DNA of 64,000 nucleotides from positions 868,001 to 932,000 of the forward strand of contig NZ_VFNP01000001.1 of the NCBI RefSeq assembly GCF_006715635.1. Direction: 5' to 3'. Source of the DNA: Streptomyces sp. SLBN-118 (GTDB taxonomy: Bacteria; Actinomycetota; Actinomycetes; Streptomycetales; Streptomycetaceae). Both the position numbers and the translations under genes were made by a program. This document shows, in pieces, positions 36,053-64,000 of the stretch. Each line of letters starts with the position of its first letter. Positions within the stretch are counted from its first letter, which is position 1. The notes under the pieces were generated by a model. The model did not search any database. It was not told where the DNA came from and saw only the letters and a list, made by a program, of their open reading frames with translations.

Positions 36053-37279
36053 TTGCGCTCTTCGACCAGGCCACGGCGCCCACTCCCCGCGGCGCTCCTG
36101 ATCGCCCTGTCCGCCCTGCTCGCTCTGCTTGCCCTGGTCACCGTCCCCGCCGGCCCCGCCCATGCATTCAACGGGAGCGCCTCCGCATGTGCGCTCCAGG
36201 GAACGACCGGCTTCACCGATGAGGGCCAGCAAACCGACTACAACCGGTTCCAGAGCCCGACCGGGACCAAGCGCGTGGGCGTGATCTACGTGGACTTCCC
36301 CGACGCCGTCGGGACCACCACGCCTCTCACTCCTTACTACAACCAGATTTCCGGCGCCGCCAACTGGCTGTGGAACGCCTCCAACGGGAAGACCTGGCTG
36401 GACCTTCAGGCCCCGTACGGCAATTGGGTGCGCATGCCGAAGAACTCCACCGCGTACAACTGGCAGCGCGATTTCTCCTGGGCAACGCACCAGACCTATG
36501 TCAAGGACGCGCTCACAGGCGCCGCCGGTGCGGGCGTCAACCTCGCCAATTACGACACGTTCTACATCGTGCCGACCAGCACCGCTGCCGCGATCAGTCA
36601 CTCCCCCACCTTCATCCAGGACCCCACCAATGTGACCTGGGTCTGGAACGGGCAGACGAACAGCTGGGTGGCCATCCACTGGGCGGTGACCTTCGGTCAG
36701 GACCTGTGGACCTGGGGCTCCAAGGTCGCCGTCCATGAGACCGGCCACACCTTCGGCCTGCCCGACCTCTACGCCTTCAGCGGCGATCTGCACCAGTACG
36801 TAGGCGGCTGGGACATCATGGGCAAGGTCAACGGCGCGGCCCCGCAGTTCTTCGGCTGGCACGCGTGGAAGTTCGGCTGGATCACTGACAGTCAGGTCTC
36901 GTGCCTGTCCACGGCAAACACGTATTCAACCACTCTGAACGGGGTGGAGTACGGGGGCACCGGCTACAAGCTGGCAGTGATCAAGACCAGCGCCACCACG
37001 GCCTACGTCGCCGAGTCCCGCAAGGCCGCCAACAACGACTCCAGCGCCTGCGCCACCGGCGTAGTCATCTACAAGGTCGACACCTCCACCACCACCGGCA
37101 ACGGGCCGATCCGGATCGTGACGAACCCCAACGCCGCTGCACCCACCGGGAACTGCTCCACGCCCGACATGCAGACCTGGAAGCCCGGCCAGTCGTTCCA
37201 GGACGACACCGCTCGCATCCGGATCTACGTGAACAGCTCCGACGCGTACAACGACACCGTCTGGACCTACAAATGGTGA
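36053..37279 (+). CDS. Secreted M6-like metalloprotease 1
   Basis: 408 residues. I choose TTG 36053 because GGAGG lies seven bases upstream and the protein then opens with a textbook signal peptide (basic RSSTRPRRP, then LLIALSALLALLALV, cleavage near AHA). The zinc site is VHETGHTFGLPDLYAF near residues 225-240, the HExxHxxGxPD form of M6/InhA-like proteases. A conserved region with three cysteines (SACALQG, VSCLST, SACATG) suggests disulfides. It is a paralogue of the protease at 43078; the two flank the oligopeptide importer. A strong terminator follows, so it is transcribed alone. Confidence 0.88.
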   Translation: MRSSTRPRRPLPAALLIALSALLALLALVTVPAGPAHAFNGSASACALQGTTGFTDEGQQTDYNRFQSPTGTKRVGVIYVDFPDAVGTTTPLTPYYNQISGAANWLWNASNGKTWLDLQAPYGNWVRMPKNSTAYNWQRDFSWATHQTYVKDALTGAAGAGVNLANYDTFYIVPTSTAAAISHSPTFIQDPTNVTWVWNGQTNSWVAIHWAVTFGQDLWTWGSKVAVHETGHTFGLPDLYAFSGDLHQYVGGWDIMGKVNGAAPQFFGWHAWKFGWITDSQVSCLSTANTYSTTLNGVEYGGTGYKLAVIKTSATTAYVAESRKAANNDSSACATGVVIYKVDTSTTTGNGPIRIVTNPNAAAPTGNCSTPDMQTWKPGQSFQDDTARIRIYVNSSDAYNDTVWTYKW

Positions 37280-37308
37280 CCGCGTAGCACGGGATGCTTC
37301 TGGTCAAC

Positions 37309-37349
37309 GGGCGGTGTGGCCGGCGCGGCATGCGCCGACCACACCGCCC
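37309..37349 (+). terminator. Strong terminator after M6 protease 1
   Basis: An 18-pair stem with one mismatch: left arm 37309-37326 (starts GGGCGGTGTGG), five-base loop, right arm 37332-37349. Located 30 bases after the protease stop. Confidence 0.8.
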
Positions 37350-37399
37350 CGGCATGCCTCCATCCTCTCGGCAGTCCACCCGGCAACGACGGGGCGAGG

Positions 37400-37422
37400 C
37401 TCCATAACGCGAAGTTATGGAG
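37400..37422. promoter_or_regulatory. LysR-type dyad CATAAC-N5-GTTATG (copy 2), before the oligopeptide importer
   Basis: CTCCATAAC-GCGAA-GTTATGGAG: here the exact arms extend to nine bases. It lies 83 bases before the importer start and 51 bases upstream of the TGTGAAATGTCACA site, the expected place for an activator. The LysR gene at 44386-45351 is the natural candidate binder. Confidence 0.6.
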
Positions 37423-37472
37423 ACATGGGAGCTATCCGTAAGGACTGGTCGCATTCAACCTTGTCCCCACTC

Positions 37473-37486
37473 TGTGAAATGTCACA
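37473..37486. promoter_or_regulatory. Operator TGTGAAATGTCACA (site 1), oligopeptide importer
   Basis: Exact 14-mer with arms TGTGA/TCACA and spacer AATG, 18 bases before GTG 37505. It would overlap the transcription start or early leader, typical of a repressor site. The GntR/FCD proteins encoded at 54189 and 56525 are candidate binders. Confidence 0.7.
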
Positions 37487-37504
37487 TCACAAAGGGAGCC
37501 TGTT

Positions 37505-39193
37505 GTGAGAATACGACGAGCCAGAACGGTCATGACGGCGGCCCTTGGGCTCATCGCCGTGGCCGGTTGCGGGGGAACCGGCCAGGGCGGCGACGATGGG
37601 CAGGCCAAGACGGCAAGCAAGGGCGGCACACTGCATGTGCTGTCCAGCATCGACCTGGAGCACCTCGATCCGGCCCGCAACTACGTCACCTCGTCCCAGA
37701 ACGTCGGCCGGCTTGTCTACCGGACACTGACGACTTTCGCGGCGGCCCCCGGCCTGGCCGGGGGCAAGATCGTGCCGGACCTGGCGACGGACAACGGGCG
37801 CCCCAGCGACGACGCCCGAACCTGGACCTTCACTCTCAGGGCGGGGGTGAAATTCGAGGACGGCCGGCCCATCACCAGCCGGGACATCAAGTACGGGGTC
37901 GAGCGGACGTTCGCCGCGGAGCTGCCCGAAGGCCCGCCGTACGGCCGGATCTGGCTGGCGGGCGGCAAGACGTACAAGGGCCCCTACAAGGACAAGCAAG
38001 GGCTCGCCTCGATCGAGACCCCCGACGACAGGACGATCGTCTTCAAGCTCAACCGCCCGGTGGCCGACTTCGGTTCGGCGGTGTCGCTGCCGATGTTCGC
38101 CCCGGTACCGAGAGACAAGGACAACGGCGTCAAGTACGACTCCAGGCCTTTCTCCTCCGGTCCGTACAAGATCGAGAACTTCGAAGCCAAGAAGCAGCTC
38201 ACACTCGTCCGCAACACTCACTGGAGTCCGGACATCGACCCGGTGCGCAAGGGTCTCCCGGACAAGATCGTGATCGATCTCAATCTGGATCCGGCCGTGA
38301 TCGACCAGCGGCTCATCGCCGCTGGGGGCGAGGACGCCAACGCGGTCGCTCTCGAGCCGATCGGCGCAGCCTCCATCGGGCCGGTGATGGCCGACCCGAA
38401 GGTGCGTCAGCGACATGTCATCGGTGAATCGATCAACACACGCTTCGTCAGCATCAATACCAAGCACAAGCCGCTGGACGACGTCCGGGTGCGGCAGGCG
38501 ATCGCATACGCGCTGGACAAGGAGGCGCTGCGCACCGCTCGCGGCGGCCCGATCATCGGGGAGCTGGCCACCACTCTGCTGCCACCGTCCCTGCCCGGCT
38601 TCGTTTCTGACGACCCGTACCCGAGCCAGGACGGCAAGGGGGATCCGGCCAAGGCCAAGGCGCTGCTCGCACAGGCCGGTCACGCCTCGGGCCTGGCCCT
38701 CACCCTCGACGCCCCCGCGACAACCACAGGCAAGGCGCAGGCCGAGGCGGTGCAGGCGTCCCTCGCCCGGGCGGGCATCACGGTGAAGATCAACGCGATC
38801 AGCTCGTCGGCGTACTACAGCACAGTGGGCAACACGGCCCAGGAGCACGACCTGGTGATCGACGGCTGGACGCCCGACTGGCCCGGCGCCTCCACCTACC
38901 TGCCGATCGTGTTCGACGGCCGGATGATCACCCCGGAGGGCAACAACAACCACTCGCAGTACAACTCACGCAAGGTCAACGCGCGGATCGACGAGATCGC
39001 CAAAGTGCGCGACCCGGCATCCGCCGCGATGGCCTACGGCGAGCTGGCCAAGCAGATCATGCAGGACGCGCCGGTCGTGCCGTTCCTGTGGGACAAGGCG
39101 GCCGTCCTCGTCGGTCCCAACGTCGCCGGGGCGTACGGGCACGTCGCCTACGTCGGGCGTCTGGATCTGGTCTCACTGGGGCTTCGCAAGTGA
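37505..39193 (+). CDS. Oligopeptide ABC importer, substrate-binding lipoprotein (SBP family 5)
   Basis: 562 residues from GTG 37505, behind AAAGGGAG. The lipobox ALGLIAVAGC places the lipidated Cys at residue 22. GGTLHVLSSIDLEHLDPARN opens the mature domain, TWTFTLRAGVKFEDGRPITS is the family-5 signature, and SINTKHKPLDDVRVRQAIAY and YAPLV-like end motifs complete it. Family 5 proteins bind di- and oligopeptides (Dpp/Opp/App) or nickel and sugars. First gene of a five-gene operon whose other members overlap by ATGA/GTGA. Peptides rich in proline or hydroxyproline are the inferred cargo. Confidence 0.93.
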   Translation: MRIRRARTVMTAALGLIAVAGCGGTGQGGDDGQAKTASKGGTLHVLSSIDLEHLDPARNYVTSSQNVGRLVYRTLTTFAAAPGLAGGKIVPDLATDNGRPSDDARTWTFTLRAGVKFEDGRPITSRDIKYGVERTFAAELPEGPPYGRIWLAGGKTYKGPYKDKQGLASIETPDDRTIVFKLNRPVADFGSAVSLPMFAPVPRDKDNGVKYDSRPFSSGPYKIENFEAKKQLTLVRNTHWSPDIDPVRKGLPDKIVIDLNLDPAVIDQRLIAAGGEDANAVALEPIGAASIGPVMADPKVRQRHVIGESINTRFVSINTKHKPLDDVRVRQAIAYALDKEALRTARGGPIIGELATTLLPPSLPGFVSDDPYPSQDGKGDPAKAKALLAQAGHASGLALTLDAPATTTGKAQAEAVQASLARAGITVKINAISSSAYYSTVGNTAQEHDLVIDGWTPDWPGASTYLPIVFDGRMITPEGNNNHSQYNSRKVNARIDEIAKVRDPASAAMAYGELAKQIMQDAPVVPFLWDKAAVLVGPNVAGAYGHVAYVGRLDLVSLGLRK

Positions 39194-40134
39194 CCACGAT
39201 GCTCCCCACCTCGGTGTCGTCCGACGTGTCACACGGCGTCGGACGGCACGAGGTGTCCCTGTTGCGGCGGCTGCTGATGCAGCCGTCCGCGGCGGCCGCG
39301 CTCACAGGAGTCGTCGCACTCGTCCTGATCGCGCTTGCGGCCCCGCTGATCACCTGGGCAACAGGTACGTCGCCGACCGAGTTCCACTCCGATGCGGTGA
39401 CTCCGGCGCTCGGCGGACTGCCGCGAGGAGCGGCGGGCGGCATCAGCACCACGCACTGGCTGGGAGTCGAGCCGGGCAGCGGCCGGGACATCCTCGCCCG
39501 TGTCGTGTACGGCGCGCGGGTCTCGCTGCTGATCGCCGTGCTCGCCACCGGTCTGTCGGTGGTGCTGGGAACGGCGCTGGGGTTGGCCGCGGGGTTCTTC
39601 GGCGGCTGGACCGATGCCCTCGTCGGTCGGCTGATGGACCTGCTGATGTCGTTCCCCAGCCTGATTTTCATGATCGCGCTGATCTCCGCGGCGCCGGGCG
39701 TGGACCGACAGTTGCTCCTGGTCGTCGTACTCGGCTTCTTCGGCTGGCCGTACGTCGGGCGAATCGTGCGGGGGCAGGCGATGGTGCTGGCCCGTGGGGA
39801 GTTCGTGGCGGCCGCCCGGGTGCTCGGCGCCTCCCGGCGCGCGCTCCTGGTGCGTGAGGTGCTCCCCAACCTGACCGGGCCGATCCTCGTCGTGGCGACC
39901 ATGTCGATCCCCAGCTACATCGCCACCGAGGCGGGCCTGTCCTTCCTCGGCGTCGGGGTGGCCCCGCCCACCCCCTCGTGGGGCCAGATGATCGCCTCCG
40001 CGGTGCCGTGGTACGCCTCCGACCCCGTCTACTTCCTGATCCCAGGCGTCTTCCTGTTCGTCACCGTGCTCGCCTTCAACGTGCTGGGCGACGCGGTACA
40101 GGACGCCCTCGACCCCCGGAGCCGGCGACGATGA
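39190..40134 (+). CDS. Oligopeptide ABC importer, permease (DppC-type)
   Basis: 314 residues from GTG 39190 overlapping the previous stop; ATG 39199 is an alternative. It has an N-terminal span (AAALTGVVALVLIALAAPLI), the DppC hallmark THWLGVEPGSGRDILARVVY, and five further spans. The EAA loop AAARVLGASRRALLVREVLP contacts the ATPases. Gene order is permease C before permease B, the reverse of the usual Dpp/Opp layout. Confidence 0.92.
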   Translation: MTTMLPTSVSSDVSHGVGRHEVSLLRRLLMQPSAAAALTGVVALVLIALAAPLITWATGTSPTEFHSDAVTPALGGLPRGAAGGISTTHWLGVEPGSGRDILARVVYGARVSLLIAVLATGLSVVLGTALGLAAGFFGGWTDALVGRLMDLLMSFPSLIFMIALISAAPGVDRQLLLVVVLGFFGWPYVGRIVRGQAMVLARGEFVAAARVLGASRRALLVREVLPNLTGPILVVATMSIPSYIATEAGLSFLGVGVAPPTPSWGQMIASAVPWYASDPVYFLIPGVFLFVTVLAFNVLGDAVQDALDPRSRRR

Positions 40135-41123
40135 TTCTGTATGTCCTGCGCAGACTGGCCGCAACGGCGACGATCCTGCTGGTGATCTGCGGCGCCACCT
40201 TCGCGATCTTCTACCTGATGCCCGCCGATCCGGCACTTGGGGCCTGCGGCAAGGCGTGCAGCCCGGAGCGGATTGCGCAGATCCGCGCGACGCTCGGCCT
40301 CGACCACTCGCTCCTTGTGCAGTTCCGCGACTATCTCGGCGGCATCGTGGCCGGCCGGAGCTACGGCACCGGTGATCAGGCCGTGACATGTCCCTTCCCC
40401 TGTCTGGGGTTCAGCTTCCAGACGAACGAGCCGGTCTGGCAGCTGCTCACACACCGTCTGCCGATCAGCGTCTCGATCGCGGTGGGCGCGGCGGTACTGT
40501 GGCTGGCCGTCGGCGTCTCGGCGGGTGTGTTGTCCGCGCTGCGCCGCGGCAGCCTGTGGGACCGGGCGGCGATGACGGCCGCGCTCGGTGGCGTCTCGTT
40601 GCCGATCTATTTCACGGCCCTGGTGCTGCAGTACCTGCTCGTCGTCAAGCTCGGGCTGCTGCCCTATCCGCAGGCGGTCCCGATCACCGCGGACCCGCTC
40701 GGCTGGGCGGAATCGATGATCATGCCGTGGATCACGCTGGCGATGCTCTACGCCGGGGTCTACGCCCGGATCACCCGCAGCGAGATGCTGGGCAGCCTGA
40801 GCCAGAACTACGTCCGCACCGCCCGCGCCAAAGGCCTGCCCGAGCCGACCGTGATGCGTCGGCATGCGCTGCGCCCAGCGCTGATGCCCATCGTGACGAT
40901 CTTCGGGATGGACCTCGGTGCGCTGCTCGGAGGCGCACTCATCACCGAGTCCGTGTTCGGCCTGCCCGGCGTGGGCAAGCTCGCGGCCGACGCGATCAAC
41001 AGCGCCGACCAGCCGGTGATCCTCGGGGTGACCCTGTTCGCCGCGTGCTTCGTGGTGCTCGCCAACGTCGTTGTGGACCTGGTGTACGCAGTCCTCGACC
41101 CGAGAGTGAGGGCCGTGGGATGA
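40131..41123 (+). CDS. Oligopeptide ABC importer, permease (DppB-type)
   Basis: 330 residues, ATGA-coupled. The N-terminal LYVLRRLAATATILLVICGA span and TFAIFYLMPADPA are the normal DppB opening. LPISVSIAVGAAVLWLAVGV and the EAA loop RTARAKGLPEPTVMRRHALR follow, with LITESVFGLPGVGKLAADAI near the end. A short external insertion with four cysteines (LGACGKACSPER, VTCPFPCLG) is less common and could form disulfides outside the membrane. Confidence 0.92.
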   Translation: MILYVLRRLAATATILLVICGATFAIFYLMPADPALGACGKACSPERIAQIRATLGLDHSLLVQFRDYLGGIVAGRSYGTGDQAVTCPFPCLGFSFQTNEPVWQLLTHRLPISVSIAVGAAVLWLAVGVSAGVLSALRRGSLWDRAAMTAALGGVSLPIYFTALVLQYLLVVKLGLLPYPQAVPITADPLGWAESMIMPWITLAMLYAGVYARITRSEMLGSLSQNYVRTARAKGLPEPTVMRRHALRPALMPIVTIFGMDLGALLGGALITESVFGLPGVGKLAADAINSADQPVILGVTLFAACFVVLANVVVDLVYAVLDPRVRAVG

Positions 41124-41965
41124 CGTTGCTGACAGTACGAGATCTGACCGTGGACTTCGGTTCCGGGACACGCGCCGTGGACGGACTGGACCTGGATCTG
41201 GAAGCCGGCGCTGTGCTCGGCGTGGTCGGTGAGTCGGGCAGCGGAAAGTCCGTCACCAGCCTTGCGGTCCTTGGTCTGTTGCCGGACGCCCGCGTCACCG
41301 GTGACATCCGGTTCGACGGACAGGATCTGACGGGATTGGGCCGACGTGCGCTGCGCAAGCTGCGCGGCGACCGCATCGCGATGATCTTTCAGGATCCGCT
41401 GTCCTGTCTGAACCCCTACTATCCGGTGGCGTTCCAGATCGCCGAGGCATACCGGGCGCACCGCGGGGCCGGGCGCCGCGAGGCTCACCGCGTCGCGGTG
41501 CGGATGCTGGAGCGGGTCGGCATCCCCGAGCCCGAGCGGCGTGCCCGCGCCTACCCGCACGAGTTTTCCGGCGGCATGCGGCAGCGGGTGATGATCGCGA
41601 TGGCGTTGTGCCTGGAGCCCGACCTGCTCATCGCGGACGAGCCGACCACCGCGCTCGATGTGACCGTACAGGCCCAGATCCTGTCGCTGCTCGGGGAACT
41701 GAGGGAGCAGTCCGGCACGGCGATCATGCTCATCACCCATGACATGGGTGTGGTTGCCGGACTGGCCGACGAGGTTGTCGTGATGTACGGCGGCCGTGCG
41801 GTTGAGCGGGGCGGGGTCCGCGATGTGTTCTACCGACCGCGGGACGCCTACACCGAGGGTCTGCTCGCCTGCGTGCCACGCGTCGACGGACCGCTGCCGC
41901 GCCGTCTTCCCACCTTGCACACGCCGGTCGCGGCACCGGTCGAAGCACCGGAGTTGACACCGTGA
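41120..41965 (+). CDS. Oligopeptide ABC importer, ATPase (DppD-type)
   Basis: 281 residues, ATGA-coupled to the permease. Walker A is GESGSGKSV (residues ~36-44), followed by the Q-loop in [12 protein letters not shown], the signature FSGGMRQRV, Walker [13 protein letters not shown], and the switch His in LITHDMG. It ends soon after the regulatory [16 protein letters not shown] motif and lacks the Cys-containing C-terminal tail of most DppD proteins (about 320-330 residues), replaced by a proline-rich end. Confidence 0.93.
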
Positions 41966-42960
41966 ACGCACCGCTGCTCGAAGTCCAGGACCTCGTCAAG
42001 CACTTCCCGGTGCGGCACGGTCTGACCCGGCGGCTCGCCGGTCATGTCGCGGCAGTTGACGGTGTATCGCTACGGGTGGAGGCCGGGGAGACGCTCGGCG
42101 TCGTCGGCGAGTCCGGCTGCGGAAAGTCGACAGTCGCCCGGCTGATCACGCGCTTGGTCGAGCCCACGTCCGGCACGATCCGGGTGGCCGGCCGGGAACT
42201 GGCATCGATGGACGAGGCGGCGATGCGGCCGGTCCGCCGGGACCTGCAGATGATTTTCCAGGATCCGTTCTCATCGCTGAACCCCCGGAAAACTGTCCGG
42301 CAGATCCTCGCAGCTCCGTACCGCTACCAAGGGCTGACGCCAGACGAGCCGGTGGAGCACCTGCTGGAGCGGGTGGAGCTGCGGCCGGAGCACGCCGACC
42401 GTTTTCCCCACGAGTTCTCCGGCGGTCAGGCCCAGCGCATCGGTATCGCCCGGGCGCTGGCACTGCGGCCGAAGCTGGTCGTCTGCGACGAGCCGGTCTC
42501 CGCGCTCGACGTGTCGGTGCAGGCGCAGATCCTCAACCTGCTCAAGGATCTCCAGGAGGATTTCGGGCTCGCTTATGTGTTCATCGCGCACGACCTCGGT
42601 GCGGTCCGCCAGATCAGTACCCGTATCGCTGTCATGTACCTCGGCACCGTGGTGGAAACGGCCGACCGGGCCACCCTGTTCGGCCGCGCCGCACACCCCT
42701 ATACCCATGCGCTGCTGTCGGCGGTGCCTGTGCCCGACCCGGACGCCGAGCGGTCCCGCGAGCGGATCGTGCTCGCCGGAGACCTGCCCAGCCCGCTCAG
42801 TCCCCCCAGCGGCTGCCCGTTCCGTACCCGGTGCCCCAGGGCGGCCGAGCGCTGTGCCGCCGAGCGGCCCGCCCTGCGGTTGATCGCTCCGGGCCAGGAG
42901 GTCGCCTGTCACTACCCCGAGCCGCTCTCGGCAGGGGGGGACCCCATGAGCCACACGTGA
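41962..42960 (+). CDS. Oligopeptide ABC importer, ATPase (DppF-type)
   Basis: 332 residues from GTG 41962 overlapping the previous stop. Walker A GESGCGKST, Q-loop MIFQDPFSSLNPRKTV, signature FSGGQAQRI, Walker B LVVCDEPVSALD, switch LAYVFIAHDLG, and the oligopeptide-family tail SGCPFRTRCPRAAERCAAER with its Cys cluster. The last few codons (GGDPMSHT) run into the remnant of an S33 gene in another frame, so the present 3' end of this gene was probably created by a deletion. Confidence 0.93.
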   Translation: MNAPLLEVQDLVKHFPVRHGLTRRLAGHVAAVDGVSLRVEAGETLGVVGESGCGKSTVARLITRLVEPTSGTIRVAGRELASMDEAAMRPVRRDLQMIFQDPFSSLNPRKTVRQILAAPYRYQGLTPDEPVEHLLERVELRPEHADRFPHEFSGGQAQRIGIARALALRPKLVVCDEPVSALDVSVQAQILNLLKDLQEDFGLAYVFIAHDLGAVRQISTRIAVMYLGTVVETADRATLFGRAAHPYTHALLSAVPVPDPDAERSRERIVLAGDLPSPLSPPSGCPFRTRCPRAAERCAAERPALRLIAPGQEVACHYPEPLSAGGDPMSHT

Positions 42961-43042
42961 CGAGTGGGAACACGACGGGGTCACCGCCTCCGGTGACCGC
43001 GTCCTGGCCCGCCCGATGGACATGGCTGCCGGACGCATCTGA
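42950..43042 (+). pseudogene. C-terminal remnant of an S33 prolyl aminopeptidase gene
   Basis: In the frame of 42950-43042 the DNA reads DEWEHDGVTASGDRVLARPM followed by DMAAGRI and a stop. The last 26 residues match the C-terminus of the S33 enzyme at 55131-56396 (EWEHDGISSSGGRVLARLMD...) at 19 of 26 positions, and more weakly the copy at 1222. Everything upstream of these ~27 codons is missing. An in-frame TGA lies just before, so this is a 3' stump left by deletion, still followed by its hairpin terminator. Confidence 0.85.
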
Positions 43043-54188: not shown

Positions 54189-54911
54189 TCAGGCGGAGCG
54201 CTTCCCCGTGCCGCGCGCCGCTCGCTTGGTTCCGGCCGAGGACGTCTCGCCCCTGCCCGCCCACAGGGAGCGGACATGTCCCAGGTGCCTGGCCATGCAC
54301 TTCTCCGCACCCTTCGCGTCACCCGCGAGCATCAGGTCGAGGAGCTCCAGGTGCTCCTCGGCCGAGGGAATCAGCTCGCCGCCCTCGTCCAGGGCGGTGA
54401 GCCCGTACAAGCGCGAGCGCTTGCGCAGGTCACCGACGGTCTCGACGAGGCGGTCGTTTCCTGAAAGGCCGAGGAGCGTCAGATGGAACTCCAGGTCGGC
54501 CTCCAGGTACCCGATCACGTCGTGGTCACGGGCCGCCCGAACGATCTCCTCGGCGACCGGGCGCAGCGCTTCCAACTCCTCGCGTGTGGCGCTGCGGGTG
54601 ATCCGGCCCACCGTGGGGATCTCGATCAGGGCGCGGATCTCGGTGTACTGATCGAGGTCGCGCTCGTTGATTTCGGTGACCCGGAAGCCTTTGTTACGGA
54701 CGGGCTCGACCAGGCCCTCGCGGGCGAGGTCGAGCATCGCCTCCCGCACGGGCGTGGCGGAGACGCCGAAGTCCTCAGCGAGCGTCGGCGCCGAATACAC
54801 GACGCCCGGACGGAGCTCTCCGGAGATCAGGGCGGCCCGAAGGGCGCTGCTCACCTGGTCGCGCAGCCGCTCCCGGGTGGCGTTGAGATCGGTGTGCTTC
54901 AGGTGCCCCAT
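54189..54911 (-). CDS. GntR-family regulator, FCD type (copy 1)
   Basis: 240 residues from ATG 54911. The N-terminal winged HTH reads LRAALISGELRPGVVYSAPT and LAEDFGVSATPVREAMLDLA. The C-terminal FCD ligand domain keeps its metal/ligand-binding residues in YTEIRALIE (Asp/Arg helix), LEADLEFHLTLL (His) and SAEEHLELLDLMLAGDA (His). It is nearly the same protein as copy 2 at 56525; differences cluster in the last ~25 residues. FCD regulators usually repress catabolic operons until the substrate or an intermediate binds. Confidence 0.93.
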   Translation of the reverse strand: MGHLKHTDLNATRERLRDQVSSALRAALISGELRPGVVYSAPTLAEDFGVSATPVREAMLDLAREGLVEPVRNKGFRVTEINERDLDQYTEIRALIEIPTVGRITRSATREELEALRPVAEEIVRAARDHDVIGYLEADLEFHLTLLGLSGNDRLVETVGDLRKRSRLYGLTALDEGGELIPSAEEHLELLDLMLAGDAKGAEKCMARHLGHVRSLWAGRGETSSAGTKRAARGTGKRSA

Positions 54912-56432: not shown

Positions 56433-56446
56433 TGTGACATTTCACA
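56433..56446. promoter_or_regulatory. Operator TGTGAAATGTCACA (site 4, minus orientation), S33 gene
   Basis: Exact 14-mer read on the minus strand (TGTGACATTTCACA on plus). It is also framed by an outer inverted repeat CAGCATG (56423-56429) / CATGCTG (56452-56458). Confidence 0.7.
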
Positions 56447-56524: not shown

Positions 56525-57244
56525 TCAGTGGGCTGCGGTTTGCCCCGACCGGGCCCGCACCCTGCCGGACTTCGCCGCGGTCTCGCTCTTGGCCCAGAGC
56601 GAGCGGACATGTCCCAGGTGCCTGGCCATGCACTTCTCCGCGCCCTTGGCATCGCCCGCGAGCATCAGGTCGAGGAGTTCCAGGTGCTCTTCGGCCGAGG
56701 GAATCAGCTCGCCTCGCTCGTCCAGGGCGGTGAGCCCGTACAGGCGCGAGCGCTTGCGCAGGTCACCGACGGTCTCGACGAGGCGGTCGTTGCCGGAGAG
56801 GGCGAGGAGCGTCAGATGGAACTGCCGGTCGGCCTCCAGGTATCCGATCAGGTCGTGGTCACGGGCGGCCCGGACGATCTCCTCGGCGACCGGGCGCAGC
56901 GCTTCCAAATCCTCGCGTGTGGCGCTGCGGGTGATCCGGCCGACCATGGGGATCTCGATCAGCGCACGGATCTCGGTGTACTGATCGAGGTCGCGCTCGT
57001 TGACTTCGGTGACCCGGAAGCCCTTGTTGCGCACGGGCTCGACCAGGCCCTCACGGGCCAGGTCGAGCATCGCCTCCCGCACGGGCGTGGCGGAGATACC
57101 GAAGTCCTCGGCAAGGACCGGCGCCGAATACACCTCACCGGGCCGCAGCTCACCGGAGATCAGGGCGGCCCGCAGAGCGTGGGCGACCTGGTCACGCAGC
57201 CGCTCCCGGGTGGCGCTGAGATCGCGGTGCTTCAGGTGCCCCAT
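56525..57244 (-). CDS. GntR-family regulator, FCD type (copy 2)
   Basis: 239 residues from ATG 57244. HTH as in copy 1 (LAEDFGISATPVREAMLDLA), FCD domain with YTEIRALIE, LEADRQFHLTLL and SAEEHLELLDLM. It follows the ALDH gene by 46 bases in the same direction and is probably read with the Hyp catabolic operon or from its own element at 57285. A GntR regulator also controls hydroxyproline genes in rhizobia (HypR), which supports the same job here. Confidence 0.93.
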   Translation of the reverse strand: MGHLKHRDLSATRERLRDQVAHALRAALISGELRPGEVYSAPVLAEDFGISATPVREAMLDLAREGLVEPVRNKGFRVTEVNERDLDQYTEIRALIEIPMVGRITRSATREDLEALRPVAEEIVRAARDHDLIGYLEADRQFHLTLLALSGNDRLVETVGDLRKRSRLYGLTALDERGELIPSAEEHLELLDLMLAGDAKGAEKCMARHLGHVRSLWAKSETAAKSGRVRARSGQTAAH

Positions 57245-57284: not shown

Positions 57285-57299
57285 ACAATGTCATATTGT
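57285..57299. promoter_or_regulatory. Dyad ACAAT-GTCAT-ATTGT before GntR copy 2
   Basis: Perfect five-base arms around five bases, overlapping the ALDH stop codon and 41 bases before the GntR start. The spacing and AT-rich arms suit a FadR/FCD-type operator. Confidence 0.5.
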
Positions 57300-58673
57300 T
57301 CTTGCAGGTGACAGGGTGTAGGTCCGGCTGGAGGTGTAAAACTCCAGTGCCGCCCGGCCCTGTTCGCGCGGCCCGTGGCTGGATGTCTTGGCGCCTCCGA
57401 ACGGCAGGTGGAAGTCGACGCCGGTGGACGGCGCGTTGATCCTGATCATCCCGGTGTCGAGCCGGTCGAACCCGTGCAGGGCCGTGTCCAGGTCGGCGGT
57501 GTGCACCGAAGTGACCAGGCCGTACGGCACCGAGTTGCCGATCCGGACCGCGTGGGCCAGGTCGTCGGCGGGCAGCAGCGCCGCGACCGGTCCGAAGACC
57601 TCCTCGCGCAGCAGCCGGTGCCCCGGGGGGACCTTCTCGACCAGAGTCGGGGCCGCATACCAGCCAGGCCTGTCGGGCACGGTGCCGCCGGCCAGCGCGC
57701 ACAGGCCGTGCCAGGCGTCGCAGACCTGGTCGCGGGCGTGCTGGTTGATCAGCGGCCCGCACACAGTCGCCGCATCGGACGGATCGCCGACCTGGACGGC
57801 CCGCAGTGCCTCCGAGAGCGCCTCGCGCAGGGGGTCCAGGGCCGCGCCGACCGCGATCACCCGGCTGGTGGCGGTGCACTTCTGGCCCGCGTACCCGGCG
57901 ATCGAGGCGGCGATGTGGGTTGCGGCCTGCTCGATGTCCGCGTCCGGGAGGACGATGGCCGCGTTCAGGCCGCCCATCTCGGCCTGGACCGGGATGCCCC
58001 GGGCCGTGGCGGCACGCGCGACGGCCTGGCCCACGGCGGTCGAACCGGTGAAGGAGACGACATCGGCGGAGGAGACGAGCGCGTTCCCCTCGGTCGCCCC
58101 GCCGGGCAGGACGGTGAACACCCCTGCCGGCAGGGCCCGCTGGATGATCTCGCCCAGGCGCCCGGCACAGGCGGTGGCCTCGGGGGCGGGCTTGAGGACG
58201 ACCGCGTTCCCGGCCGCGAGCGCCGGGGCGGCCTTCCAGCTCGGAATGGCGAAGGGAAAGTTCCAGGGCGTGATCAGTCCGGCCGCGCCGTGCGGCCGGC
58301 GGCGGGTGAGCAGCAGGCCGGGGCCCACGGCGGTCTCGTGGACGGCGCCGACGGGCTCGTAGGGGGCCTGGGCGTAGTAGCGCCAGATCGCAGCCGTGCG
58401 GACGACTTCGGCGCGGGCTTCGGCGCGGGGCTTGCCCACCTCCCGGACGGCGAGCGCGGTCAGCTCGGCCTCCGCGGCATCGATGGCGTCGGCGACCTCA
58501 CCGAGGGCGGCCGAGCGGGCGGCCGCCCCGCCGAGCAGCCATCCCGGCTGGGCGGCGCGCGCCCGGTCCACGGCGTCGACCGCCGCGAAGGCGCCGGGCG
58601 CCGGAATCTGCAGGAGTACGTCGGACGGGTCGGCCGGATTGCGCGATGCGATGAGGGATTCGGTGGCGGTCAC
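57291..58673 (-). CDS. Aldehyde dehydrogenase, probable 2-oxoglutarate semialdehyde dehydrogenase
   Basis: 460 residues from GTG 58673, whose GTGA overlaps the stop of the epimerase gene. The cofactor region is WNFPFAIPSWKAAPALAAGN and KPAPEATA, SFTGSTAVG at ~207-215, catalytic Glu232 in QAEMGGLNA and nucleophile Cys266 in YAGQKCTATSRV. NEVFGPVAALL-type motif EEVFGP follows near residue 375. In the hydroxyproline pathway the last step oxidises 2-oxoglutarate semialdehyde to 2-oxoglutarate. The neighbours point to that substrate; the motifs only show ALDH. Confidence 0.9.
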   Translation of the reverse strand: MTATESLIASRNPADPSDVLLQIPAPGAFAAVDAVDRARAAQPGWLLGGAAARSAALGEVADAIDAAEAELTALAVREVGKPRAEARAEVVRTAAIWRYYAQAPYEPVGAVHETAVGPGLLLTRRRPHGAAGLITPWNFPFAIPSWKAAPALAAGNAVVLKPAPEATACAGRLGEIIQRALPAGVFTVLPGGATEGNALVSSADVVSFTGSTAVGQAVARAATARGIPVQAEMGGLNAAIVLPDADIEQAATHIAASIAGYAGQKCTATSRVIAVGAALDPLREALSEALRAVQVGDPSDAATVCGPLINQHARDQVCDAWHGLCALAGGTVPDRPGWYAAPTLVEKVPPGHRLLREEVFGPVAALLPADDLAHAVRIGNSVPYGLVTSVHTADLDTALHGFDRLDTGMIRINAPSTGVDFHLPFGGAKTSSHGPREQGRAALEFYTSSRTYTLSPARTI

Positions 58674-59674
58674 AGGAGGAAACCTCCGGGGAAGGGGTCG
58701 TCCGGGTCGAGGAAGTACTGGGCGGTGCCGGTGATCCAGGCGCGGCCGGTAACGGTCGGCACGACGGCGGGCAGCCCGCCGACAGTGGTCTTCTCGATCA
58801 GGCGGCCGGTGAAGCGGGTTCCGATGAAGGACTCGTTGACGAAGTCGCGGCCGAGGGGCAGTTGCCTGCGCGCGTACAGCTGGGCCATCCGGGCCGACGT
58901 GCCCGTGCCGCACGGGGAGCGGTCGAACCAGCCGGGATGGATGGCCATCGCATGCCGGGAATGGCGGGCGTTGGAGCCGGAAGCGGCCAGGTACACATGC
59001 TTGACTCCGGCGATCTCCGGTTGCTCGGGGTGCACGGGCCGCTGTGGCGAGGCGTTGATCGCGTCCATGATGGCCAGCCCGGCGGCCAACAGCTCGTCCT
59101 TGCGCGTGCGGTCGAACGGCAGCCCCAGCGCGTCGAGTTCCACGAAGGCGTAGAAGTTCCCGCCGAACGCCAGGTCATAGGTGACCGTGCCGTGGCCGGG
59201 CACGGAGATCTTGTTGTCCAGAGCCGCGCAGAAGGCCGGCACATTGGTGAACGTGACGGCTGTGGCCGCGCCGTCCGCCACCTGGACCTCGACGGTCACG
59301 AGCCCCGCCGGGGTGTCGAGCCGGACCGTGGTGACCGGTTCGCTCACCGGCACCATGCCCGTCTCGACGAGTACGGTGGCGACCCCGATGGTGCCGTGTC
59401 CGCACATCGGGAGGAGCCCTGAGACCTCGATGTAGAGGACTCCGAAATCGGCGTCGGGGCGGGTGGGCGGCTGGAGGATGGCACCGCTCATGGCGGCATG
59501 GCCACGTGGCTCGTACATCAGGAGCGTCCGGATGTGGTCGAGGTGCTCGATGAAGTGCAGCCTGCGCTCGGCCATGGTGGCGCCGGGGATGACCCCGATG
59601 CCACCGGTGATCACCCGCGTGGGCATGCCCTCGGTGTGTGAGTCGACTGCGTGGAAGACATGGCGCGTACGCAC
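58670..59674 (-). CDS. 4-Hydroxyproline 2-epimerase (proline racemase family)
   Basis: 334 residues from GTG 59674, behind AAGGAAG. VDSHTEGMPTRVITGG near the start and the two catalytic thiols are all present: Cys91 in LLPMCGHGTIG and Cys255 in RSPCGTGTSARMA. Having both Cys fits racemase/epimerase chemistry; the trans-3-hydroxyproline dehydratase branch has Ser/Thr at the first site. The enzyme converts trans-4-hydroxy-L-proline to cis-4-hydroxy-D-proline. Flanked by DapA-type and ALDH genes of the same pathway. Confidence 0.93.
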   Translation of the reverse strand: MRTRHVFHAVDSHTEGMPTRVITGGIGVIPGATMAERRLHFIEHLDHIRTLLMYEPRGHAAMSGAILQPPTRPDADFGVLYIEVSGLLPMCGHGTIGVATVLVETGMVPVSEPVTTVRLDTPAGLVTVEVQVADGAATAVTFTNVPAFCAALDNKISVPGHGTVTYDLAFGGNFYAFVELDALGLPFDRTRKDELLAAGLAIMDAINASPQRPVHPEQPEIAGVKHVYLAASGSNARHSRHAMAIHPGWFDRSPCGTGTSARMAQLYARRQLPLGRDFVNESFIGTRFTGRLIEKTTVGGLPAVVPTVTGRAWITGTAQYFLDPDDPFPGGFLL

Positions 59675-59702: not shown

Positions 59703-60608
59703 TCAGTGGTGGCCGTCGGCGACGGCCTTCTCGGTGGCGGCCCGCACGCCCGCCTCGATCGCCCCCGTGAGCGGGAAGCGCGGCGGGCGGGAGGGGCCAC
59801 CGCGGCGGCCCACGATGTCCATGGACAGCTTGATGGACTGGACGAACTCCGTCTTCGAATCCCAGCGCAGCAGCGAGTGCAGGGACTTGTAGAGCGGCAG
59901 GGCGGTGTCCAGGTCGCCGGCGACAGCGGCGTGGTACAGCTCGGCGCAGCTGGCGGGGAAGGCGTTGGGGTAGCCGGCGATCCAGCCGACCGCACCGGCC
60001 ATGGCGAGCTCGAGCAGGACGTCGTCCGCGCCGATCAGCAGATCCAGTTCCGGGGCGAGTTCGGCGATCTCGTATGCGCGCCGTACATCGCCGGTGAACT
60101 CCTTCACGGCGACGATATTGCCGTCCTGGTGCAACCGGGCCAGCATGCCGGGCGTGAGATCCACCTTGGTGTCGAGCGGATTGTTGTACGCGACGACCGG
60201 GACCCCGGACCGGGCGACCTCGGCGTAGTGGGCGTGCACGGCCTGCTCGTCGGCCCGGTAGGCGTTCGGGGGCAGCAGGAGGACCGAGCCGCAGCCCGAT
60301 TCGCCCGCCTGCTCCGTCCAGCCCCGGGCCTCGGCGCTGCCGTAGGCGGAGACGCCGGGCATGACCCGCGCGCCGCCCGCCGCATCGACCGCGGTGCGCA
60401 CCACGCGCGCCCGCTCCTCGTCGGTGAGGGTCTGGTATTCGCCGAGCGAGCCGTTGGGTACGACACCGTCGCAGCCGTTCTCGATCAGCCAGGAGACGTG
60501 CTCGGCGTACGCGTCGTAGTCGACGGACAGGTCGTCCCGCAGTGGCACCGCGGTGGCGACCATGATCCCGCGCCAGGGGCGCGTACTGTTCCAGGTGGTG
60601 GCCATCAT
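59703..60608 (-). CDS. DapA-family lyase/deaminase, probable pyrroline-4-hydroxy-2-carboxylate deaminase
   Basis: 301 residues (ATG 60608 or 60605). It is a TIM barrel of the dihydrodipicolinate synthase family, with GSLGE in place of GTTGE near residue 53, Tyr141 in VVAYNNPLDT and Schiff-base Lys169 in IVAVKEFTGD. In hydroxyproline catabolism a DapA-family enzyme deaminates and opens 1-pyrroline-4-hydroxy-2-carboxylate to 2-oxoglutarate semialdehyde. Its place between the dehydrogenase and epimerase genes argues for that reaction. A TGTGA-type operator lies 24 bases upstream. Confidence 0.88.
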   Translation of the reverse strand: MMATTWNSTRPWRGIMVATAVPLRDDLSVDYDAYAEHVSWLIENGCDGVVPNGSLGEYQTLTDEERARVVRTAVDAAGGARVMPGVSAYGSAEARGWTEQAGESGCGSVLLLPPNAYRADEQAVHAHYAEVARSGVPVVAYNNPLDTKVDLTPGMLARLHQDGNIVAVKEFTGDVRRAYEIAELAPELDLLIGADDVLLELAMAGAVGWIAGYPNAFPASCAELYHAAVAGDLDTALPLYKSLHSLLRWDSKTEFVQSIKLSMDIVGRRGGPSRPPRFPLTGAIEAGVRAATEKAVADGHH

Positions 60609-60631: not shown

Positions 60632-60645
60632 TGTGACATTTTACT
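60632..60645. promoter_or_regulatory. Degenerate operator (site 5), DapA/epimerase/ALDH unit
   Basis: TGTGACATTTTACT matches the minus-strand form TGTGACATTTCACA at 12 of 14 positions, directly before the DapA-type gene. It implies a promoter between the dehydrogenase genes and the rest of the operon. Confidence 0.55.
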
Positions 60646-60680: not shown

Positions 60681-62144
60681 TCAGTCGCCGACGCCCGGTG
60701 CCGAGTCTGTACGGACCCCGGTGGGTTCGTCGAGCGAAGCGAGTGCCGAGAGCGGAACGGGCACAGCGAACGGACGGCGTTCGACGGGCGGCTCCACGGC
60801 ACCCCCGCGTGCCGCGAGGCACGCCACAGCCGCGCCGCACATCCGTCCCTGGCACCAGCCCATGCCGGCTCTGGTGAGCAGTTTGACGGTACGTGCGTCG
60901 CGGGCCCCGAGGTCGGTGACGGCTTCGCGGATGCGTCCTGCCGTCACTTCCTCGCAGCGGCACACCTCCGTGCCGTCGGTCAGCCAGCTGGTCCAGCCCG
61001 CTGCCGGTGCATGACTGAGGGCCATCGCATCGGCGAAGGCGCGCATCCGGTCCCGGCGACGTTGCAGCTCGCGAACGCGCTCCTCGCGCACAGGGCGCCC
61101 GTACAGTCTGGCAGCCGCCGCGAGCCCGGCCAGTTCCCCTTCCGAGCGGGCGAGCTGCGCGCCACCGACTCCTCCGGTCTCCCCTGCGGCCCACAGACCG
61201 CGCACAGAGGTTTCCTGAAGCCCGTCCAGAGCCACGGCGGATGTTCCGTCGGGCAGCGGGCGGGTGGCGCAGCCGAGTGCGGTGGCCAGTTCGATCTGGG
61301 GGACCAGGCCGTGCCCGACGGCCAGCGCGTCGCACTCGATCCGGCGCCCCGACCCCTGGACGGGACGCCAGTCGAGGTCGAGGCGACTGACGGTGACGGC
61401 CTCCACCCGGTCGGTGCCATGCACCTCGGTGACCGCGCTGCGCAGCCGCACCCGTACGCGATGCCGGAGCAGAGCGGCACCGTGGACCGCCGCCTCGACC
61501 CATTTGCGCGGGTTGGCCGCGAGCGCGCGGGGATGGCGGGCGTACCCCAGATAGCCGGACGCCTCGATCACGGCCGGGACCTGCGCGCCGGCGGTGGCGA
61601 GCGAGGAGGCGACCGCGAGCAGCAGGGGCCCGCTGCCCGCCACGACAACGCGCTTACCGGGCAGCACCAAGCCGGACTTGAGCATGGCCTGCGCTCCCCC
61701 GGCACCCACGACACCCGGCAAGGTCCAGCCGGGAAAGGGCAGTTGGCGTTCGTACGCCCCGGTCGCGAGCAGCACCGCACGGGCCCGCACCCGCACCGAC
61801 CGCTCCGCCGTGCCGTCGGCCCCGGTGACGGCGTGCACCGCCCACAGGGCGCCCTCCTCCTTCGTGACGGCCCAGACATGGTGTCCGCGCAGAAGGCTGA
61901 CGTCGCTCTGCTCCAGTCGCCGGCGCAGCTGCGCGAAGGCGGACCAGTCATGGTGCAGGGCCTCGGGCCGCGCCGCGCCGATGGCCCGCGCAGGATGCCG
62001 GTAGAACTGCCCGCCCGTCTGGGGCGAGGCGTCCAGCAGGGCCACGGACAAGCCCAGTCCGGCTGCCGTGACGGCGCCCGCGAGACCGGCGGAGCCCGCT
62101 CCGATCACCGCGAGGTCGTAGGGATCAGACGCCGAGATCGGCAT
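60681..62144 (-). CDS. FAD/NAD(P)-binding oxidoreductase with [2Fe-2S] BFD domain, D-hydroxyproline dehydrogenase subunit (HcnB-like)
   Basis: 487 residues. N-terminal FAD loop DLAVIGAGSAGLAGAVTAA, second nucleotide loop KRVVVAGSGPLLLAVASSLA near residue 165, and GLWAAGETGGVGGAQLARSE near residue 330. The C-terminal Fer2_BFD-like domain has CRCEEVTAGRIREAV and GWCQGRMCG, four Cys for a [2Fe-2S] cluster. With the next two genes this is the three-part HcnABC / D-hydroxyproline dehydrogenase type, oxidising cis-4-hydroxy-D-proline. It overlaps the ferredoxin-like gene by 20 bases. Confidence 0.9.
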   Translation of the reverse strand: MPISASDPYDLAVIGAGSAGLAGAVTAAGLGLSVALLDASPQTGGQFYRHPARAIGAARPEALHHDWSAFAQLRRRLEQSDVSLLRGHHVWAVTKEEGALWAVHAVTGADGTAERSVRVRARAVLLATGAYERQLPFPGWTLPGVVGAGGAQAMLKSGLVLPGKRVVVAGSGPLLLAVASSLATAGAQVPAVIEASGYLGYARHPRALAANPRKWVEAAVHGAALLRHRVRVRLRSAVTEVHGTDRVEAVTVSRLDLDWRPVQGSGRRIECDALAVGHGLVPQIELATALGCATRPLPDGTSAVALDGLQETSVRGLWAAGETGGVGGAQLARSEGELAGLAAAARLYGRPVREERVRELQRRRDRMRAFADAMALSHAPAAGWTSWLTDGTEVCRCEEVTAGRIREAVTDLGARDARTVKLLTRAGMGWCQGRMCGAAVACLAARGGAVEPPVERRPFAVPVPLSALASLDEPTGVRTDSAPGVGD

Positions 62145-62439
62145 GACCGTGTCCCTCCTGGGTGGTGATCACGTCGCCGGGGCGGGCAGGCACCAGGCAG
62201 GCCCTGTGGTTGGGCTCCCCATTGACGATGGCAAGGCAGTCGTAGCATTGCCCGATGCCGCAGAAGGCACCCCTCGGGCGGCCGGTGTTGCGCGTGGTGC
62301 GCCAGGCGAGGATGCCCGCGGACCACAGGGCCGCGGCGACGGACTGCCCGGGCAGGGCGGTGACCGGGCGGCCGTCCATCGTGATCTCGAATGACGGGCC
62401 GGGGTTCGCTCCCACCAGTTCGGCTGGGGTACGGGCCAC
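62125..62439 (-). CDS. [2Fe-2S] ferredoxin-like subunit of the D-hydroxyproline dehydrogenase (HcnA-like)
   Basis: 104 residues. The cluster ligands are Cys60, Cys65 and Cys68 in AFCGIGQCYDCLAIV and Cys81 in HRACLVPA, the Fer2_4 spacing. PGQSVAAALWSAGILAWRTT precedes them. Such small subunits bridge the two flavoproteins in HcnABC and D-hydroxyproline dehydrogenases. Its end overlaps the larger flavoprotein gene; its start is 27 bases after the amino-acid-oxidase-like gene. Confidence 0.92.
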   Translation of the reverse strand: MARTPAELVGANPGPSFEITMDGRPVTALPGQSVAAALWSAGILAWRTTRNTGRPRGAFCGIGQCYDCLAIVNGEPNHRACLVPARPGDVITTQEGHGHADLGV

Positions 62440-62466
62440 TGCGGGCCTCCTCTCATAGCTGACGGG

Positions 62467-63618
62467 TCAGACGGCGACTTCGAAGCGGTCGGGCCTGAAC
62501 GGGCCCATGTCCAGGGATGGCTCACCACCGACCAGTGATTGTGCGATGAGCAGCCCCGTGGCCGGGGCAAGACCGATCCCCGCGCCTTCGTGACCGCAGG
62601 CGTGCAGCAAGCCGTGCACCCGTGGATCGGGGCCGATGGCCGGCAGATGGTCGGGCAGGTACGGGCGGAACCCGGCATATGTCCGCATCGCCCGGACCCC
62701 GGCCAGGAACGGGAACAGTGCGGTGGCCTGTGCCGCCAGGCGGCGCAGCACCTCGGTCGACAGCGTGACGTCGAAGCCGACCCGTTCCCGGCTGGCGCCG
62801 ATCAGGACCGGGCCCGCGGGGGTGCCCTCGACCACCGCCGAGGTCTGCAGCGCAGCCGAGCCGCTGGCGACATCGGCAACATAGTCGGCCGCGTACACCT
62901 TGTGCCGCACCACGCGCGGCAGGGGTTCCGTGACGAGTACGAAACCGCGGCGCGGCAGCACAGGAAGCTCGACGCCCGCGAGCCGGGCGAACTCGCCACC
63001 CCAGGTACCGGCCGCATTGATCACGTACGGGGCATGCACCTCGCCGGCCACGGTACGCACCCCCCGCACCGATCCGTCCGCCGCGGTCAGCAGGCCCCTG
63101 ACCTCCTCGCCGAGGCAAAGACGCACCCGATCACCCCCCGCGCGCAGCAGATGCGCGGCTGCCAGGGCCGGCATGACCTGCGCATCCTGGGGGTAGTGGA
63201 AGCCGCCCGCCAGGCCGGGAGCCAGATGCGGCTCCAGGTCGTGCAACCGGTCCCCCGGGACTTCCTCCGCCCGCACACCGGCCTTCTCCTGTCCGGCCGC
63301 GAAGTCGCGCAGCGATCGCATCCCGTCCTCACCGGAGGCGACGACGAGACCGCCCTTGGGCTCGTACTCGATCTGCGGCGGGAGCAGTTCGGCCAGCTCC
63401 CGCCACAGCCGGGCGGACAGCATTGCGAGATCGAGTTCGGGTCCGGGCTCTTTGTCGGAGACCAGGAGATTGCCTTCGCCGGCCCCCGTGGTGCCGCCCG
63501 CGACGGGGCCGCGGTCGATCACGGTGACGGAGAGGCCGACCCGAGCCGCGTAGTAGGCGCAGGCCGCGCCGACCACGCCGGCACCGACAACGATGAGGTC
63601 CGAGGTTCTCGTGGGCAC
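62467..63618 (-). CDS. FAD-dependent D-amino-acid oxidase-like subunit (HcnC-like), D-hydroxyproline dehydrogenase
   Basis: 383 residues from GTG 63618. The DAO fold starts DLIVVGAGVVGAACAYYAAR, followed by GGTTGAGEGNLLVSDKEPG. YVINAAGTWGGEFARLAGVE and the closing HACGHEGAGIGLAPATGLLI are family landmarks. It is the catalytic flavin subunit acting on the D-imino acid. First gene of the dehydrogenase unit, behind a degenerate TGTGA-type operator. Confidence 0.92.
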   Translation of the reverse strand: MPTRTSDLIVVGAGVVGAACAYYAARVGLSVTVIDRGPVAGGTTGAGEGNLLVSDKEPGPELDLAMLSARLWRELAELLPPQIEYEPKGGLVVASGEDGMRSLRDFAAGQEKAGVRAEEVPGDRLHDLEPHLAPGLAGGFHYPQDAQVMPALAAAHLLRAGGDRVRLCLGEEVRGLLTAADGSVRGVRTVAGEVHAPYVINAAGTWGGEFARLAGVELPVLPRRGFVLVTEPLPRVVRHKVYAADYVADVASGSAALQTSAVVEGTPAGPVLIGASRERVGFDVTLSTEVLRRLAAQATALFPFLAGVRAMRTYAGFRPYLPDHLPAIGPDPRVHGLLHACGHEGAGIGLAPATGLLIAQSLVGGEPSLDMGPFRPDRFEVAV

Positions 63619-63621
63619 GCT

Positions 63622-63635
63622 AGTAATATTTCACA
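63622..63635. promoter_or_regulatory. Degenerate operator (site 6), dehydrogenase unit
   Basis: AGTAATATTTCACA matches TGTGACATTTCACA at 11 of 14 positions. It also sits inside a perfect GTAAT-N7-ATTAC dyad (63623-63639). It lies four bases before the GTG start of the DAO-like gene. Confidence 0.45.
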
Positions 63636-63678
63636 TTACACTGGCGATGCCAAGTGTTTCGCGTGATCCGCCGACGGC

Positions 63679-64000
63679 TCACCCCTCCAGCAGGGTGCCC
63701 ATCCACGCCTCGATGGCGGCCGGCGTCCTTGGCAGCGCGTCGGACATCAGTCGTGCCCCCTCCGAGGTAATCACCAGATCGTCCTCGATGCGTACGCCGA
63801 TGCCACGCAACTCAGGGGGCAGTGTCTCGTCGTCGGGCTGGAGGTAGAGCCCGGGTTCGACGGTCAGGACCTGCCCCTCCTCCAGGATCCCGTCGAGGTA
63901 CACCTCGGCCCTCGCCTGTGCGCAGTCGTGGACGTCCAGGCCGAGCATGTGCCCGCTGCTGCACAGGGTGTACCGGCGATGGAAGTCTCCCTCGGCGCTC
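63679..64000 (-). CDS. pepP: M24 Xaa-Pro aminopeptidase (partial, cut by right edge)
   Basis: The last ~107 residues are visible and the frame is open at the edge. SGHMLGLDVHD, VLTVEPGLYL and GIGVRIEDDLVIT contain the conserved His, Glu and Glu metal ligands of aminopeptidase P-type M24 enzymes. These remove the residue in front of proline. An M24 peptidase at the head of the Hyp operon, with an S33 prolyl aminopeptidase in the same regulon, gives a complete proline-peptide trimming set. Its stop is 43 bases before the operator of the DAO-like gene. Confidence 0.9.
   Translation of the reverse strand, partial: SAEGDFHRRYTLCSSGHMLGLDVHDCAQARAEVYLDGILEEGQVLTVEPGLYLQPDDETLPPELRGIGVRIEDDLVITSEGARLMSDALPRTPAAIEAWMGTLLEG

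Follow-up and report, generated by a model that had tools for sequence, protein, structure and literature searches.

In Streptomyces coelicolor A3(2), the use of hydroxyproline (Hyp) is controlled by HypR. This regulator represses the Hyp operon together with the genes for a secreted M9 collagenase and for a 2-oxoglutarate dehydrogenase/decarboxylase, and L-Hyp acts as inducer. The main text of the 2019 report (PMC6608401), on which our statements about this system rest, gives the regulon as SCO6289-6294, SCO5912 (the M9 collagenase) and SCO5281, and shows that deletion of the epimerase gene SCO6293 abolishes growth on L-Hyp. Streptomyces lividans was reported in 2014 to grow on trans-4-hydroxyproline (trans-4-Hyp) with induction of the genes (PMC4113996). 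Here we analysed a window of 64,000 nucleotides from Streptomyces sp. SLBN-118 (C1:868001-932000 of a 7.79-Mb, two-contig genome), in which an island of genes from 36 kb onwards is very probably an expanded regulon of the HypR type that serves the use of proteins rich in hydroxyproline, with collagen or gelatin as the likeliest substrates.

The island shares with the S. coelicolor regulon the functional residues of the GntR/FCD repressor, the operator core, the site at the repressor's own promoter, the gene order HcnC-HcnA-HcnB-DapA-HypE and the presence of a secreted collagenase in the regulon (PMC6608401). It differs in gathering at a single location two M6 proteases, Opp importers (likewise two), a LIV importer, S33 and M24 peptidases, an aldehyde dehydrogenase (ALDH), LAL and LysR regulators and a further copy of HypR, and in having its M9 collagenase encoded in trans, outside the island. 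In S. coelicolor, the aldehyde dehydrogenase gene is situated away from the operon according to PMC6608401. The trans-4-Hyp pathway of Pseudomonas and Sinorhizobium comprises the same four steps as the island (epimerase, D-Hyp dehydrogenase, deaminase and alpha-ketoglutaric semialdehyde (KGSA) dehydrogenase), and Pseudomonas aeruginosa likewise has a three-subunit D-Hyp dehydrogenase; the island differs in its linked protease and peptide importers and, from P. aeruginosa with its AraC-type LhpR, in its GntR repressor (PMC6608401).

Gene calls were based on codon-position GC content and profile searches. All of the gene classes named in a preliminary description of this DNA were found by Pfam and NCBIfam searches, including its four regulators, which are one LysR, one LuxR-type LAL and two GntR/FCD proteins. 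That description had placed the island at 36-64 kb; its genes are present, and its right limit proved to be the edge of the window only, as the island extends to about 70.8 kb. The genes are as follows.

36053-37279, plus strand: M6a, secreted M6-domain metalloprotease with the motif HETGHTFGLPD (TIGR03296, 113 bits)
37505-39193, plus strand: OppA1, peptide-binding lipoprotein (PF00496, E 2.8e-74)
39088-42960, starts approximate, plus strand: OppC1, OppB1, OppD1 and OppF1, permeases and ATPases (PF00528, PF19300, PF00005, PF08352)
42959-43036, plus strand: relic of an S33 C terminus between OppF1 and M6b, 26 residues, 73% identical (tblastn E 1.6e-10 in a 400-base comparison)
43078-44277, plus strand: M6b, secreted M6-family metzincin-like protease (TIGR03296)
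44386-45351, minus strand: LysR regulator, from a profile search; it adjoins M6b or Opp in many relatives
45331-48531 (open reading frame limits; start candidates 45394-45454), plus strand: LAL, large LuxR-type regulator (PF13191, PF00196)
49386-54156, plus strand: LivJ, LivH, LivM, LivG and LivF, LIV/HAAT-type amino-acid importer (PF13458, PF02653, PF00005, PF12399)
54189-54911, minus strand: GntR1, HypR homologue, with the site TACAGTGTCAC about 36 bp upstream
55131-56396, minus strand: S33-family prolyl-aminopeptidase-like hydrolase with GQSYGG, from profile searches
56525-57244, minus strand: GntR2, HypR homologue, with the site TACAATGTCAT about 37 bp upstream
57291-58676, minus strand: aldehyde dehydrogenase, best NCBIfam match alpha-KGSA dehydrogenase, under the cut-off
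58670-59674 (GTG start picked by inspection), minus strand: predicted 4-hydroxyproline 2-epimerase HypE, of the Cys-Cys type (PF05544, E 8.6e-128)
59703-60608, minus strand: DapA-family protein, predicted pyrroline-4-hydroxy-2-carboxylate (Pyr4H2C) deaminase (PF00701, E 2.3e-46), in the operon place of SCO6292
60681-63618, minus strand: HcnB-, HcnA- and HcnC-like subunits of a predicted D-Hyp dehydrogenase (PF07992/PF04324, PF13510, PF01266)
63679-64000 in the window and on to 65067, minus strand: M24, Xaa-Pro aminopeptidase-like (L002:5679-7067)
about 65176-70841, past the window end: second, divergent Opp operon, Opp2 (L002:7176-12841)

The genes are joined by a shared operator, here defined by sequence matches. 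The preliminary description had spoken of shared sites, and these are real: TGTGAAATGTCACA occurs exactly at 37473, 45412, 49305 and 56433, and these four copies, all within the island, are the only exact ones in the whole 7.79-Mb genome. They lie 16-157 bp ahead of the assumed starts of OppA1, LysR/LAL, LivJ and S33, those of LAL and LivJ being uncertain. Weaker sites, with two or three mismatches, precede DapA, HcnC and M24/OppA2. The sites listed in the window, given without strand, are as follows.

37473-37486: operator TGTGAAATGTCACA, 18 bp ahead of the OppA1 start
45412-45425: operator TGTGAAATGTCACA, between LysR and LAL
49305-49318: operator TGTGAAATGTCACA, upstream of LivJ
56433-56446: operator reading TGTGACATTTCACA on the plus strand, 37 bp ahead of S33
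60632-60645: operator with two mismatches, 24 bp ahead of DapA
63622-63635: operator with three mismatches, 4 bp ahead of HcnC; several relatives have a similar site here

GntR1 and GntR2 are duplicates, 88% identical, that stand on both sides of S33. Each has 14 of 14 HypR functional residues (DNA contact, zinc site and effector pocket) identical, as compared through the positions named in PMC6608401 at one constant offset, with the HypR sequence itself unaligned. Both genes are also preceded by copies, with one mismatch each, of TACAATGTCAC, the sequence that HypR recognises at its own promoter in S. coelicolor, as footprinted (PMC6608401). In related M6b loci, all 12 close GntR homologues had an exact copy of TACAATGTCAC upstream, counting homologues more than 75% identical with enough upstream sequence and excluding more distant ones (for example, those of L077 and L083). 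By contrast, none of 109 control upstream regions of internal genes held TACAATGTCAC at up to two mismatches, the best control having three. One or both of GntR1 and GntR2 are predicted to be repressors that act at TGTGAAATGTCACA-like sites.

The same operators and gene order recur beyond this genome. We compared 45 loci containing M6b from Streptomyces, Kitasatospora, Saccharothrix, Nonomuraea and one unclassified actinobacterium, a set that overlaps the 101 genomes described below and to which three contigs contribute two loci each. Sites with up to two mismatches numbered 74 in these loci, against a mean of 0.685 (maximum 9) for 200 permuted palindromes. All but two of the 74 lie within 450 bp upstream of the aligned start of an island gene, and the other two (L081 and L090) precede an M9 collagenase gene by about 100 bp. 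Two or more genes of the Hyp route were present in the available stretch of 27 loci; ten had OppA1-CBDF-S33-M6b without Hyp genes, five had OppA2-S33-M6b with or without a second M6b, and three lacked Hyp genes, Opp and S33 alike, with M6a present in one of the three. The order OppF1-S33-M6b, with an operator ahead of OppA1, was found in all 12 OppA1-type loci, and the window's counterpart of the S33 gene between OppF1 and M6b is the 26-residue relic. The combined arrangement is repeated in one locus from Nonomuraea and in further Streptomyces. In the loci from Kitasatospora and Saccharothrix, the available stretch shows the Opp-S33-M6b operon and its operator alone.

Linkage was also apparent across 101 genomes of the same genus, that of the window included. 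Of 14 places with island-type M6 genes, nine had HypE within 25 kb, whereas this held for none of the 136 housekeeping M6 genes listed. OppA2 was present in 25 genomes (E <= 1e-150), and 22 of its 26 places had HypE within 10 kb; in the window's genome, OppA1 and OppA2 are 47% identical. S33 genes at least 78% identical were within 5 kb of HypE in all seven full-length places (by eye), and a split S33 gene in G054 was not. The sequence TGTGMAATGTCACA occurred 14 times, its reversed control not at all, and ten of the occurrences lay within 22 kb of HypE, nine of them within 16 kb. One of these ten precedes a DPPIV-like S9 peptidase (G039), and another, in G066, directly precedes a gene for a 160-residue predicted secreted protein with no Pfam match, between genes resembling those of insertion sequences (L096:18636-19118). 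The remaining four stand ahead of M6b (G054), LAL and LivJ (both G030) and an InhA-type protease (G000, the window's genome). The last gene, which lies elsewhere in the genome, encodes a secreted M6 protease of 832 residues, and TGTGCAATGTCACA is found about 20 bp ahead of its likely TTG start. Eight other places in the window's genome with up to two mismatches to the operator (C1:1252292, 1483369, 2216722 and 2872848; C2:1943509, 1948978, 2060498 and 2909952) were read as chance because the neighbouring genes have no evident link to the system.

HypE has the Cys-Cys pair (C82/C246) and carries Ser54 at site 1, His217 and Ile236 at the diagnostic positions, which in proline racemase are Phe, Leu and Phe; site 1 was located by alignment to 7pb3, and sites 4 and 5 by their spacing to the second Cys. 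In the proline racemase superfamily, a non-Phe residue at site 1 and His at site 4 are diagnostic (PMC4364671). HypE thus has the residues expected of a 4-Hyp epimerase, and activity on trans-4-Hyp is predicted. Several Streptomyces (L038, L098, L094, L096 and L042) have, beside or near HypE, another gene of the racemase family with a Cys-Cys pair, whose product shares about 37-42% identity with HypE and has Phe ten residues ahead of the second Cys, as in proline racemase; its assignment as a Cys-Thr dehydratase was ruled out, as the five examined are Cys-Cys. The HcnABC-like trio contains DAO, Fer2_4, and Pyr_redox_2 with BFD domains. For S33, the nearest solved chain is AT3g61540 (E 3.5e-111). 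An S33 paralogue, 52% identical, lies close to the left edge of the window (1222-2553; G000:C1:869228).

Both small secreted proteases pass the cut-off of the TIGR03296 M6 domain (110.8 bits), M6a with 113 and M6b with 123.9 bits, and are 49% identical to each other. In the HExxHxxGxxD motif, H219, E220, H223, G226 and D229 are unchanged across 23 aligned sequences. The gathering score of PF05547 was not reached by M6b (20 against 22 bits), and M6a had no match to it; a sequence search of the PDB with M6b gave no match, and M6b was matched to M6 through fold comparison. The solved chains of M6 peptidases (immune inhibitor A) have 689-754 residues, whereas M6b of the window has only 399. The TTG start of M6a at 36053 behind GGAGG, as placed by the preliminary description, is possible.

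M9 collagenases were found in 62 of the 101 genomes, at 83 places, 27 of which had HypE within 20 kb; HypE was present in 61 of these 62 genomes, compared with 23 of the 39 others. Among the M6b loci, five contain M9, and in three of them (L085, L086 and L091) M9 and M6b diverge around a single two-mismatch site. In G090, one cluster unites M9, M6b, S33, GntR, ALDH, HypE, DapA, HcnBAC, M24, Opp2, M6b and LysR. In the window's genome, TGTGCAATATCACA sits between the M9 collagenase and a divergent gene outside the island, a layout that resembles the SCO5911/5912 arrangement of the HypR regulon (PMC6608401). The divergent gene encodes a secreted protein of 744 residues with a HESAH motif (L026:2120-4354) and only a weak InhA-like MAM match in Pfam.

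Several observations weigh against the reading of the island as one enlarged HypR-type regulon. Three of its enzymes missed the cut-off of the corresponding NCBIfam model: HypE, with 350.2 against 376 bits for 4-hydroxyproline epimerase, still its best-scoring model; ALDH, with 357.2 against 770 bits for the alpha-KGSA dehydrogenase equivalog, still its best family; and S33, with 28.4 against 259.75 bits for prolyl aminopeptidase. No recognisable operator precedes any of the five M6a genes checked (the window's and four others), and in G058 M6a stands away from the island genes. Because no site was found, operator control of M6a was ranked lower; M6a is tentatively assigned to the island by adjacency. 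Hyp genes are missing from the available flank of 18 of the 45 M6b loci. Across the 101 genomes, HypE is found in 84 (E <= 1e-40), compared with eight for island-type M6 (14 places, at least 51% identity), so in most Streptomyces the Hyp route operates in the absence of such a protease; in G054 and G018, M6 and HypE are far apart or on separate contigs. The LivJ orthologue is rare (2 of 101 genomes, E <= 1e-130). Of the 83 M9 places, 56 had no HypE within 20 kb on their own contig, and about 570 bp separate the site TGTGCAATATCACA from the probable start of M9, the divergent gene being closer. The published 14-nucleotide consensus CTNTGCMATGTCAC gave 55 matches, 12 within 20 kb of HypE and 43 elsewhere; none was within 5 kb of M9, and CTNTGCMATGTCAC thus failed as a pointer to M9. 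Finally, related genomes are non-independent samples, and the linkage counts ignore kinship.

We therefore weighed other explanations of the island. It might serve to scavenge proline peptides in general, from casein, gelatin or any proline-rich protein, the Hyp operon forming one of its branches. In favour of this, S33, M24 and the DPPIV-like S9 peptidase behind an exact operator in G039 all belong to classes specific for proline rather than Hyp. However, the regulators are HypR homologues with a conserved own-promoter operator, the catabolic genes are those for Hyp, and no proline dehydrogenase was found among the island reading frames scanned with Pfam; we consider this explanation unlikely. 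Somewhat more doubtful is that the same regulon has plant extensin or another Hyp-rich glycoprotein, instead of animal collagen, as its natural substrate. Hyp also occurs in plant and algal cell walls (PMC6608401), and collagen is only a predicted substrate of the M6 proteases. Against this stand the proximity of M9 to HypE and the operator upstream of M9 in several loci; moreover, no glycosidase was found among the island reading frames scanned with Pfam, although no wider glycosidase search was made. The preliminary description had named collagen or extensin; because M9 collagenases are often in the same clusters, several with an operator upstream, collagen is the likelier substrate, and extensin was ranked below it. 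That a Hyp operon lies by chance beside unrelated proteases and importers would fit the loci lacking Hyp genes and the absence of an operator at M6a, but is largely contradicted by the shared operators, the repeated gene order and the linkage of M6 to HypE, and is scarcely credible.

The enlarged HypR-type regulon thus remains our preferred explanation. The preliminary description had taken the whole set to be one system, and this is largely supported by the shared operators, the HypR-type regulators and the repeated gene order, which join secreted proteolysis, peptide import and the complete 4-Hyp route; its extension to the whole set is not supported, given the missing operator of M6a and the rarity of LivJ. 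We observed the genes, the operator sequences and their conserved linkage. For substrates, uptake and regulation in this strain, we infer the following scheme. Secreted M6b, probably M6a too, the trans-encoded M9 collagenase and the InhA-type M6 protease would release peptides rich in Pro and Hyp, which the two Opp importers would take up; free Hyp or Pro may enter through the LIV importer. In the cytoplasm, the M24 and S33 peptidases would free Hyp, and the epimerase, the HcnABC-like D-Hyp dehydrogenase, the DapA-type deaminase and ALDH would turn trans-4-Hyp into 2-oxoglutarate. Repression would be exerted at TGTGAAATGTCACA-like sites by one or both GntR proteins, as HypR copies, and lifted by a signal derived from Hyp, with LAL and LysR as putative additional regulators.

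Scans of the window with Rfam (at the gathering threshold) and for tRNAs gave no matches. Beyond Opp2 lie genes for a secreted protein resembling galactose oxidase and for a peroxidase of the DyP type that carries a B-lectin domain (L002:13756-17535; about 71756-75535 in window numbering).

The preliminary description knew of no such combination in Streptomyces. The general idea, with HypR, the Hyp operon and a secreted M9 collagenase, has been published (PMC6608401, PMC4113996), and what is new is the predicted membership in the regulon of the M6 proteases, two Opp importers, S33, M24, LIV and LAL. The words 'oligopeptide' and 'immune inhibitor' are absent from the main text of PMC6608401, and in titles and the openings of abstracts, which covered few subscription papers, we found no report of M6 proteases, Opp or LIV importers, S33, M24 or LAL in a Hyp regulon. 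We lean, with confidence a little above even, towards a broader view in which actinobacteria have 'collagen utilisation loci', equivalent for protein to the polysaccharide utilisation loci: a single repressor of the HypR type and a single palindrome would unite secreted M9 and M6 endoproteases, two Opp importers dedicated to Hyp peptides, peptidases specific for Pro/Hyp and the full route to 2-oxoglutarate, and the small M6 proteases would form a new collagen-processing class. With this island, a known amino-acid pathway would become a candidate complete route from a structural protein to central metabolism. The shared operator singles out candidate enzymes and importers, namely the small M6 proteases and the Opp systems for Hyp peptides, and may provide a genomic marker for the use of collagen by soil actinobacteria.

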